A DNA stretch of 39,364 nt from Blastococcus sp. CCUG 61487. GTDB lineage: Bacteria; Actinomycetota; Actinomycetes; Mycobacteriales; Geodermatophilaceae. Positions 3,368-30,318 of this stretch are shown here, one piece after another (positions within the stretch are counted from its first letter, which is position 1; every line of letters starts with the position of its first letter). The stretch spans positions 1 to 39,364 of the forward strand of contig NZ_LWUA01000252.1 of NCBI RefSeq assembly GCF_005222955.1, in the 5' to 3' direction. Position numbers and translations under genes: made by a program. Below the pieces are notes generated by a model. The model ran no database searches. It was not told the origin of the DNA and saw only the letters and a program-made list of their open reading frames with translations.

Positions 3368-3943
3368 ATGTCCGACGACGACGTCCTGCAGAACGTGGGT
3401 CCACGTCTGCGGGCGCTGCGCAGCGAGCGGGGTGCGACGCTGACCGACGTCGCGGAGACGACGGGGATCTCGGTGAGCACGCTCTCCCGGCTCGAGTCCG
3501 GCGGGCGCCGGCCGACCCTCGAACTGCTGCTCCCCCTGGCCCGCACCTACGGCGTGGCCATCGACGACCTGGTGGACACCCCGGCGCCGGCCGACCCGCG
3601 GGTGCACGGGCGTCCGATCGAGCGCGAGGACGGCATGACGATGGTGCCGCTGAGCCGGCAGGCGGGGGGCCTGCAGTCCTACAAGATGGTGCTGCCGGCC
3701 CGGTGGCGGGTGCACGACACCGACCAGAAGACGCACGAGGGCTACGAGTGGCTCTACGTGCTGTCCGGCCGGATCCGGCTCCTGCTGGGGGCCCGCGACT
3801 TCGTGCTCACCCCGGGCGAGGTGGTCGAGTTCGACACCCGGGTGCCGCACACGTTCTCGAACCCGTTCCCCGAGCCGGCCGAGGGGCTGGTGCTCTTCGG
3901 GCCGCAGGGCGAGCGGATGCACGTCCGCGCCCGCCCCGCCTGA
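3368..3943 (+). CDS. XRE-family regulator with C-terminal cupin domain
   Basis: 191 residues. An N-terminal helix-turn-helix (about 8-65) has the recognition-helix phrase GISVSTLSRLESGGRRPT. A C-terminal cupin_2 barrel (about 100-185) shows HEGYEWLYVLSGRIRLLLG and TPGEVVEFDTRVPHTFSN. In this family the cupin senses a small ligand or metal and the HTH represses or activates neighbouring genes. The start at ATG 3368 is preferred because the family begins directly with a short lead-in to the HTH; the 16-codon upstream extension would cover the promoter. The divergent flavoenzyme-methyltransferase pair is the obvious target. The ligand is unknown. Confidence 0.9.
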   Translation: MSDDDVLQNVGPRLRALRSERGATLTDVAETTGISVSTLSRLESGGRRPTLELLLPLARTYGVAIDDLVDTPAPADPRVHGRPIEREDGMTMVPLSRQAGGLQSYKMVLPARWRVHDTDQKTHEGYEWLYVLSGRIRLLLGARDFVLTPGEVVEFDTRVPHTFSNPFPEPAEGLVLFGPQGERMHVRARPA

Positions 3944-27949: not shown

Positions 27950-28696
27950 TCAGCCGCGGACGTGCTCGGCGTAGGTGCGCCGGCCGCGGGCGCCGCTGGA
28001 GGGCACGGCCGCGCCGTCGCGGAACGCGGTGCTCAGCTTCCCGGGCACCGGCGTCGCGACGACGTGCACGCCGGGCGCCCGCGCCGCCGACCACGTCCGC
28101 GCCAGCTCCGCCGCGGTGAGCTCCTGCGGTCCGCCGAACTCGACGACCCCGCCGCTCGGCGGACCGGCCACGACGTCCACGAGGTGGGCGGCGACCTCGT
28201 CGACGTCCACCGGTGCGCCGCGCCAGCCCATCGGCACGGGCAGCACCGGCCCGCGCCGGGCGGTCTCGAGCAGCTGGTCGACGAAGTGGTGGAACTGCGT
28301 GACCCGCACCAGGGTGACCGGCAGGCCCGACGCGAGCAGCACCTGCTCGGCGGCGAACTTCGCCCGGTAGTAGCCGAACGGGATGCGGTCGACCCCGACG
28401 ATCGAGACGTACACCAGGTGCCGCAGCCGGTCGCGGTCGACCGCCTCCACCAGCCGGCGGGTGCCGGCGACGTCGACCTGCCAGGGGTCGCCCCGCGGGT
28501 CGCTGGCGGCGTGCACGACCAGCTCCGCGCCGGCGAGCGCCGGCCGCAGGTCGAAGCCGGTGGCGAGGTCGCCGCGCACCCCTCCGGGCCCGGTCCCCCG
28601 CCGCGACATCTGCCGCACCGTGTGGCCGGCGTCCTGCAGCAACGGGACCAGCCGCCGGCCGAGCTGCCCCGTCCCTCCGGTGATGAGCACGTCCAC
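27950..28696 (-). CDS. NAD(P)-binding protein, atypical SDR (NmrA-like)
   Basis: 248 residues. It begins VDVLITGGTGQLGRRLVPLL, with the atypical SDR nucleotide motif TGGTGQLG at the very start. VYVSIVGVDRIPFGYYRAKF carries the YxxxK pair, and FHHFVDQLLETARRG and a VDEVAAHLVDVVAG segment follow, as in the NmrA/complex-I-like SDR5 group. Such proteins are often NADP sensors or epimerase-like reductases; no substrate is evident. The GTG at 28696 is preferred over an upstream ATG (28753), because that one would lie in the operator of the divergent XRE-MurA gene and adds only low-quality residues. It may be regulated by the same operator. Confidence 0.88.
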   Translation of the reverse strand: MDVLITGGTGQLGRRLVPLLQDAGHTVRQMSRRGTGPGGVRGDLATGFDLRPALAGAELVVHAASDPRGDPWQVDVAGTRRLVEAVDRDRLRHLVYVSIVGVDRIPFGYYRAKFAAEQVLLASGLPVTLVRVTQFHHFVDQLLETARRGPVLPVPMGWRGAPVDVDEVAAHLVDVVAGPPSGGVVEFGGPQELTAAELARTWSAARAPGVHVVATPVPGKLSTAFRDGAAVPSSGARGRRTYAEHVRG

Positions 28697-28744
28697 GGGA
28701 GCAGTGTGGCCCGTCCGGAGGGTGCGGCGAGCCACCCGGCCCGT

Positions 28745-28764
28745 GTATCTCACAGACGAGATAC
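28745..28764. promoter_or_regulatory. HipB-like operator before the XRE-MurA gene
   Basis: GTATCTC (28745-28751), six bases, then GAGATAC (28758-28764) form a perfect 7-bp dyad. TATC and GATA are ten bases apart, exactly as in the E. coli HipB operator (TATCC-N8-GGATA). The right arm also holds a plausible -10 (AGATAC, 28759-28764) for a leaderless start at 28774, so binding would block transcription. Confidence 0.7.
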
Positions 28765-28773
28765 CGTGGCGCG

Positions 28774-30318
28774 GTGACGGTGACCGACTCTTCTCCCGAC
28801 ACCGCGATGGCCCGGATCGGTGCGCTGGTGCGCGACGCCCGCCGGCACCGCGGCCTCACCCAGCAGCAGCTGGCCGAGCGGCTGGGAACCAGCCAGAGCG
28901 CGGTGGCCCGCATCGAGCAGGGCAACCAGAACCTCACCCTCGAGCTGCTCGGCCGGCTCTCCGCCGCGCTGGAGAGCGAGTTGATCAGCGTCGGGCCGGC
29001 GGGGCCGACGCACCTGCGCGTGACCGGCGGCCGGCCGCTGTCGGGCAGCGTGGCGGTGAAGTCCTCGAAGAACGCCGCCGTCGCCCTGCTCTGCGCGGCG
29101 CTGCTCAACCGTGGCCGCACCACGCTGCGCAACGTGGCCCGCATCGTCGAGGTGGAGCGGATCCTCGACGTGCTGCGCTCGATCGGCGTCGTCGCCACCT
29201 GGGACGAGGCCGGGCGCGACCTGACCATCGCCGTCCCCGACGAACTGGACCTCGCCGGCATCGACGCGGACGCGGCCCGCCGGACGCGCAGCATCATCAT
29301 GTTCCTGGGGCCGCTGCTGCACCGGGCCGGCACCTTCGAGCTGCCCTACGCGGGCGGATGCGACCTCGGCACCCGCACGGTGCAGCCGCACATGATCGCG
29401 CTGCGCCCCTTCGGGCTGGAGGTCGAGGCGCGGGCCGGCGAGTACCACGCCACCGTCACCCCGACCGGCGCCAGCACGCGGACCATCGTGCTCACCGAGC
29501 GCGGGGACACCGTGACCGAGAACGCGCTGCTCGCCGCCGCCCGCGCCGAGGGCACGACGACCATCCGCAACGCCAGCTCCAACTACATGGTCCAGGACCT
29601 GATCCTGTACCTGCAGCTGCTGGGCGTGGGCATCGAGGGCCTCGGGACGACGACGCTGGTGGTCACCGGCCGGCCCGTGCTCGACGCCGACGTCGACTAC
29701 ACGATCAGCGAGGACCCGGTCGAGGCGATGAGCCTGCTGACCGCCGGCATCGTGACCGATTCGGAGCTCACCGTGCGGCGGGCGCCCGTGGAGTTCCTCG
29801 AGATCGAGCTCGCGGTGCTGGCGGAGATGGGGCTGCGCTACGAGCTCTCGCCGGAGTACCTCGCCGACAACGGGCACACGCGGCTGGCCGACATCACCAT
29901 CCACCCGTCCCGGCTGCGAGCACCCATCGACAAGATCCACCCGATGCCGTTCCCGGGCCTGAACATCGACAACCTGCCGTTCTTCGCGGTGATCGCCGCG
30001 CAGGCCGAGGGCTCGACGATGATCCACGACTGGGTCTACGACAACCGGGCGATCCACCTCTCCGACCTGACCCGGCTGGGCGCCGACGTCCGGCTGCTCG
30101 ACCCGCACCGCGTGCTGATCGACGGCCCGACGCGGTGGTCGAGCGCGGAGGTCGTGTGCCCGCCGGCGCTGCGACCCGCCGTCTGCATCCTGCTGGCGAT
30201 GCTCGCCGCCAAGGGGACGTCGGTGCTGCGCAACGTGGACATCATCGCCCGCGGCTACGAGCACCTCTACGAGCGGCTGGTGGAGATCGGCGCGTCCATC
30301 GAGGTCTTCCACGACTGA
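28774..30318 (+). CDS. XRE DNA-binding domain fused to MurA-type enolpyruvyl transferase
   Basis: 514 residues. Residues about 12-70 are a HipB-like XRE helix-turn-helix (RRHRGLTQQQLAERLGTSQS, then AVARIEQGNQNLT). Residues 83-514 are a complete EPSP/MurA fold. By comparison with E. coli MurA the active-site residues are kept: Lys99-Asn100 (K22-N23), the catalytic Cys196 in YAGGCDLGTR (C115), Asp399 in FPGLNIDN (D305) and Arg467 (R397). The enzyme should therefore be able to transfer enolpyruvate from PEP to UDP-GlcNAc, the first committed step of peptidoglycan synthesis. The fused HTH suggests it also binds DNA, and a matching dyad lies just upstream. The start is a GTG, with no ribosome-binding site, consistent with a leaderless mRNA. 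A housekeeping MurA is expected elsewhere; that is inference. Confidence 0.9.
   Translation: MTVTDSSPDTAMARIGALVRDARRHRGLTQQQLAERLGTSQSAVARIEQGNQNLTLELLGRLSAALESELISVGPAGPTHLRVTGGRPLSGSVAVKSSKNAAVALLCAALLNRGRTTLRNVARIVEVERILDVLRSIGVVATWDEAGRDLTIAVPDELDLAGIDADAARRTRSIIMFLGPLLHRAGTFELPYAGGCDLGTRTVQPHMIALRPFGLEVEARAGEYHATVTPTGASTRTIVLTERGDTVTENALLAAARAEGTTTIRNASSNYMVQDLILYLQLLGVGIEGLGTTTLVVTGRPVLDADVDYTISEDPVEAMSLLTAGIVTDSELTVRRAPVEFLEIELAVLAEMGLRYELSPEYLADNGHTRLADITIHPSRLRAPIDKIHPMPFPGLNIDNLPFFAVIAAQAEGSTMIHDWVYDNRAIHLSDLTRLGADVRLLDPHRVLIDGPTRWSSAEVVCPPALRPAVCILLAMLAAKGTSVLRNVDIIARGYEHLYERLVEIGASIEVFHD

Follow-up and report, generated by a model that had tools for sequence, protein, structure and literature searches.

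In MurA, the UDP loop binds the UDP part and Asp369 is catalytic. The nikkomycin enolpyruvyl transferase NikO is a MurA-like enzyme whose acceptor is UMP and not UDP-GlcNAc. BzdR and BoxR join an XRE helix-turn-helix (HTH) to an enzyme fold that is shikimate-kinase-like. In the accessible part of PMC3602430, BzdR is described as a regulator thought to derive from an enzyme, with the activity lost, that controls a catabolic operon. The operator of the XRE-domain protein HipB is given as TATCCN8GGATA in the accessible part of PMC3920265. Excerpts of the Streptomyces literature place MurA2 (SCO5998) beside SCO5999/acnA (PMC12161575), report a BldM-WhiI footprint at murA2 (sven5810) of S. venezuelae (PMC4125116), state that overexpressing murA2 failed to mimic the phenotype of whiI overexpression (PMC11005364), and assign SCO5998 of S. 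coelicolor a SigB-dependent promoter whose printed sequence is without the dyad described below (PMC8346170). These excerpts treat MurA2 as an ordinary UDP-GlcNAc transferase or leave the protein undiscussed, and they do not mention the HTH, the dyad, or the altered UDP loop reported here. No description of the HTH, operator, or autoregulation of such a fusion was found in the excerpts searched, a set that mostly excluded subscription papers. PMC12565409, PMC4255298, and PMC3521396 are, in the parts available, not about this protein.

The window analyzed here is the whole 39,364-nt stretch of contig NZ_LWUA01000252.1 from Blastococcus sp. CCUG 61487 (GCF_005222955.1). Its features of interest are listed in Table 1. 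The fusion of an XRE HTH with a MurA fold, first proposed in a sequence-only reading, is confirmed by the open reading frame and by Pfam matches to HTH_3 (residues 19–67, E 2.3e-12) and EPSP_synthase (residues 83–502, E 1.7e-49). An AlphaFold model built from 29 aligned sequences has a mean pLDDT of 86 and places the recognition helix at residues 41–48. The MurA part of the model matches many solved MurA chains in Foldseek with a TM of ~0.9 by target length.

Table 1. Features of the fusion locus, in window coordinates
Feature	Coordinates	Strand	Basis or remark
Perfect dyad GTATCTC-N6-GAGATAC, proposed operator	28745..28764		GTATCTCACAGACGAGATAC; core ATCTCA-N4-YGAGAT at 28747-28762
-10-like element TACCGT (TANNNT)	28762..28767	+	Overlaps right arm of dyad, 6 nt before GTG
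XRE-HTH / MurA-fold fusion gene	28774..30318	+	ORF of 514 aa, GTG start, stop included; domain matches; AlphaFold model
XRE helix-turn-helix domain, residues 15-70	28816..28983	+	Pfam HTH_3; NCBIfam TIGR03070 below cut-off; model helices
MurA/EPSP-synthase-fold domain, residues 80-511	29011..30306	+	PEP-side residues conserved; UDP loop and Asp369 not
Divergent NmrA-like/NAD(P)H-binding gene	27950..28753	-	Longest frame; not thought part of the unit

Comparison of the HTH with PDB sequences gave the best scores to DBP48, which we take to be a designed protein, and to restriction controller proteins, followed by others, with HipB at 0.002. Restriction-modification controller proteins thus slightly outscore HipB. 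The HTH scores 50.1 bits against TIGR03070, for which the cut-off is 71.65. Three neighbors were scanned (NAD(P)H-binding/NmrA-like, short-chain dehydrogenase, and PucR-type) and no HipA was found among them. A HipB or toxin–antitoxin reading was rejected on the TIGR03070 score and the absence of HipA from those three neighbors. An anti-phage role was also rejected, as all 22 PADLOC matches fall in the HTH part. The fusion shares with BzdR and BoxR an XRE HTH joined to an enzyme fold, but its C-terminal domain has the EPSP_synthase fold and not the shikimate-kinase-like one, which places it outside that group, and its HTH scores 35.5 bits against NCBIfam PRK08154, below the cut-off of 204. By analogy, BzdR is the nearest conceptual relative. 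It differs from the fusion, as far as the accessible part of its description goes, in controlling a catabolic operon with its activity lost, whereas only the fusion's own promoter was found as a target and the PEP-side residues are invariant. Elsewhere in the window, part of another open frame (3371–3619, forward strand) resembles fusion residues 7–89 (36% identity, E 1.1e-4).

Fusion genes were found in 114 of 394 genomes of an even class sample (E 1e-58 or better). These span 25 of 137 genera and 12 of the family labels used by the tool. Apart from a few interrupted copies, the class matches are full-length, at 63–100% identity. An even phylum sample gave matches at 1e-100 in 16 of 396 genomes. 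Within the genus, 16 of 23 genomes encode the fusion, 7 are without it, and all 23 encode a separate canonical MurA. Named relatives, of which 138 were confirmed and the best 80 used for alignments and loci, include members of Blastococcus, Geodermatophilus, Modestobacter, Streptomyces, Kitasatospora, Pseudactinotalea, and Hamadaea. Interrupted copies occur in genomes G016 (L099/L107; the genome of L055), G161 (L259), G589, and G681. They match in two pieces or end early inside the MurA domain, and may reflect assembly error or decay.

The enzyme half retains much of the canonical MurA site. Lys99, Asn100, Cys196, Asp399, and Arg467 align to K22, N23, C115, D305, and R371 of E. coli MurA. The sequence-only reading had listed these five as kept, and they are kept in all of the 80 best fusions of 138, as are R91, R120, and R397. 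The fold and K22, N23, R91, R120, D305, R371, and R397 are shared with canonical MurA, which is without an XRE domain. The UDP side is replaced in the fusion. Residues K160, S162, V163, and G164 are E, G, D, and T in 80/80 fusions (best 80 of 138), forming an E242/G244/D245/T246 loop, while SVG is kept in E. coli and in 13/13 canonical copies of the genus, in which K160 is Phe. At the position of Asp369, which is Asp in 13/13 canonical copies, the 80 fusions have 79 Pro and 1 Arg (frameshifted L055); the alignment may place Pro or the next residue, Ala, opposite Asp369, and neither is acidic. Identity of the window protein to MurA is 29.5% for the E. coli enzyme and 33.9% for the canonical copy in its own genome, although values of ~30–34% do not by themselves prove a different acceptor. 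That canonical MurA is 46.6% identical to E. coli MurA. The fusion scores 311.2 bits against the murA equivalog TIGR01072 (cut-off 392.7) and 323.2 bits against the broader PRK09369 subfamily (cut-off 297). NikO is among the structural matches, and its sequence similarity to the fusion is lower than that of the best MurA (2.9e-29 vs 5e-53). The position of Cys115, which is Cys in the fusion, is Asp in all 13 canonical MurA copies of the genus (L002, L100–L106, and L108–L112). This change is known from naturally fosfomycin-insensitive MurA.

The description of the domain as an intact MurA enzyme is therefore too strong, because Asp369 and K160/S162/V163/G164 are not kept in the 80 relatives aligned. 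Feedback through UDP-GlcNAc, also suggested in the sequence-only reading, is not supported, given the same replacements and the canonical MurA encoded elsewhere in 23/23 genus genomes. We read the residue pattern as PEP binding that is probably kept and acceptor binding that is probably changed.

The dyad GTATCTCACAGACGAGATAC is perfect and ends 9 bp before the GTG of the fusion gene, as originally noted. A search of the window that tolerated up to 2 mismatches gave this single occurrence, compared with 0.02 expected from 100 shuffles. Its core, ATCTCAN4YGAGAT, has a single exact match in the 4.1-Mb genome, and one-mismatch sites also occur. Across relatives, left-arm bases A, C, T, C, and A are each present in at least 109 of 110 distinct sites, with T between A and C in 92. 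The proposed HipB geometry stands in part. TATC-N10-GATA is present in the window, and an XRE domain with this outer frame is common to HipB, going by the accessible text, and the fusion. However, only 60 of the 110 sites have the outermost left T of TATC, and the TA on the right falls on the −10-like box. The fifth base also differs, C in the HipB operator and T in the window dyad.

TANNNT can serve as an actinobacterial −10 element, and leaderless mRNAs are common in actinobacteria. In 118 of 121 regions that carry the dyad, the final T of its core is also the first base of a TANNNT box. The first in-frame ATG, GTG, or TTG lies 6–8 nt after this box in 110 of the 121 (105 when any frame is counted). 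We infer from this arrangement that the box is the promoter −10 of the fusion gene. The right arm of the dyad runs into it near the start codon, so a bound protein would block the promoter.

In the class sample, the dyad lies upstream of the fusion in 112 of 114 fusion genomes. The pattern is exact in 69, and 43 of the 45 without the exact pattern have at least 10 of 12 arm bases. Within the genus, 15 of the 16 genomes with the fusion have an exact ATCTCAN4YGAGATA immediately before it, and the 7 without the fusion lack the pattern altogether; the sixteenth fusion genome (L090) has a one-base variant. Upstream regions were scored for the 12 arm bases at 79 of the 80 named loci and at the 45 class loci without the exact pattern, giving 124 regions, all different. 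L053 was excluded since its contig begins inside the gene. Scores of at least 10/12 were obtained for 121 of the 124 regions, compared with 9 of 2,480 dinucleotide shuffles, 0 of 13 canonical murA upstream regions, and 0 of 79 intragenic windows. The consensus was drawn from the named relatives, so scoring 79 of them is partly circular, while the 45 added regions were picked for absence of the exact pattern, which biases in the opposite direction. Away from the fusion, exact sites total 11 across the 114 genomes that have it and 17 across the 280 that do not; these raw counts, regardless of genome size, give no clear excess of second targets. Scans for the exact pattern, which are blind to degenerate sites, gave no consistent second target in the window's own genome, the genus, or the 394 class genomes.

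The dyad is absent from 3 of the 124 genes: L025 (Geodermatophilus tzadiensis), and L246 and L254, which are from one genus. Among 125 HTHs, window included, Asp43 is found only in these three, and the other 122 have Ala43. L246 and L254 have also lost near-invariant Gln41, Ser42, Arg46, Gln52, and Asn53. These three genes represent about two independent losses, and position 43 was chosen post hoc. In L025 the dyad arms are degraded, while TACCGT is present at the distance from the GTG that is seen in its relative L017, so the operator is separable from the promoter. K22, N23, R91, C115, R120, D305, R371, and R397 are all retained in L025 and in L258, the latter being the complete gene from the L246 genome. 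The L254 gene is interrupted by a frame change (L259). In G161, where the fusion HTH is changed, three exact copies of ATCTCGTTCATGAGATA are present (C1:425834, C1:2406772, and C4:60082) and possibly belong to a repeat element.

Comparison of upstream regions thus shows that the XRE domain and the dyad over a −10-like box are conserved as a pair in many actinobacterial families and that loss of one goes with loss of the other. The check on homologs suggested in the sequence-only reading, co-occurrence of dyad and HTH, came out in its favor at 112/114, with the dyad absent where the recognition helix is changed. The fusion resembles self-regulating XRE regulators in having a dyad at its own promoter that co-occurs with the HTH and is lost with it. 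Although comparison is no proof of binding, joint loss of the dyad and HTH residues is hard to explain except by HTH–dyad binding, and the HTH of the fusion very probably binds the dyad.

We favor a model, probable on the comparative evidence, in which the fusion, a member of the MurA/EPSP-synthase superfamily, is both an enzyme and the repressor of its own gene. A dimer would bind ATCTCA-N4-TGAGAT through its two recognition helices, cover the −10 box, and block RNA polymerase at a probably leaderless promoter. With no consistent second exact site, the main output of this circuit would be the level of the fusion protein, implying a useful role for the C-terminal domain in its own right. That domain may use PEP as the enolpyruvyl donor for something other than UDP-GlcNAc, or for UDP-GlcNAc bound in another way, given an active site whose PEP half does not vary and whose UDP half is remodeled. 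Speculatively, substrate or product binding in the MurA domain could release or strengthen DNA binding, as in a trigger enzyme. Confidence in any named ligand is low, although the protein may sense PEP. A wider proposal is offered tentatively, at somewhat less than even chance: that the actinobacterial MurA2 group is a non-MurA enolpyruvyl transferase with another acceptor, which senses substrate or product at its active site and represses its own leaderless promoter.

A model close to the sequence-only reading, in which the fusion works as a second MurA and adjusts its own expression to UDP-GlcNAc, PEP, or UDP-MurNAc, is rather unlikely. The fold (TM ~0.9 by target length), the PRK09369 score, and Lys22, Cys115, Asp305, and Arg397 in 80/80 fusions (best 80 of 138) all agree with it, and the presumed ortholog is named MurA2 in the available part of PMC12161575. 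Against it are the TIGR01072 score (311.2 vs 392.7), GDT in 80/80 fusions where canonical copies have SVG, the loss of Asp369, and the canonical MurA in all 23 genus genomes, 7 of them fusion-less. Loss of Asp369 also suits a protein that acts purely as a transcription factor and senses through a MurA domain devoid of catalytic activity, an architecture with the logic of BzdR as outlined in the accessible part of PMC3602430. This is improbable, since a dead sensor with no second target would be without output, which favors an active enzyme. The PEP-side residues are invariant, and L025 and L258, with a changed helix and no dyad, keep their active-site residues, which suggests a DNA-independent function.

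The dyad could instead be the site of another regulator, with the fused HTH doing something else. Partial views of the published work on Streptomyces murA2 name BldM-WhiI, SigB, and a predicted DmdR1, and a similar dyad, TATCTCGA-N2-TCGAGATA, lies near Streptomyces acnA and occurs also in 10 fusion-less genomes. Absence of the dyad from the three Asp43 genes and from none of the other 121, and from all 7 fusion-less genus genomes, makes this explanation highly improbable. Self-repression by the fusion remains the preferred reading.

The dyad is found almost everywhere beside the fusion, and sharing of the operator with the divergent NmrA-like gene, as once suggested, is not supported as a general trait. 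A homolog of that gene is present in 20 of 80 loci (best 80 of 138) and directly upstream in 16. An alternative GTG at 28696–28694 would make the dyad intergenic. At 10 of the 80 loci (best 80 of 138), all Streptomycetaceae, a neighbor belongs to one homology group of ~860 aa, which is aconitase in the one member tested. This neighbor matches the SCO5998/SCO5999 arrangement, and by synteny and locus numbering the fusion is presumably the ortholog of Streptomyces MurA2 (SCO5998 / sven5810 / vnz_28735). A 16-base piece of the SigB promoter sequence, as printed in the accessible part of its source, was not found in the 170 loci searched, and since that sequence is without the dyad, more than one promoter may exist.

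A second conserved dyad, TATCTCGATGTCGAGATA, is found upstream of the fusion on the aconitase side in L120, L121, L161, L168, and other Streptomyces loci, and fits a loose form of the operator. The form TATCTCGA-N2-TCGAGATA is present in 50 of the 394 class genomes. A wider regulon including aconitase was rejected since 10 of these 50 have no fusion, and the acnA-side dyad is probably the site of another regulator. TamR, a MarR-family protein that represses aconitase according to the available part of PMC5487221, is a candidate but only a lead; its site sequence was not found in the excerpts searched.

If the wider proposal on the MurA2 group is true, the fusion would be the first XRE–enolpyruvyltransferase trigger enzyme known to us. 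Under the favored model it would provide a clear-cut example of an enzyme acting as its own repressor, for which genomes already contain natural knock-outs, and a second enzyme fold for the BzdR-type route from enzyme to regulator. The genes regarded in Streptomyces papers as a second MurA for the cell wall would then probably have another substrate.
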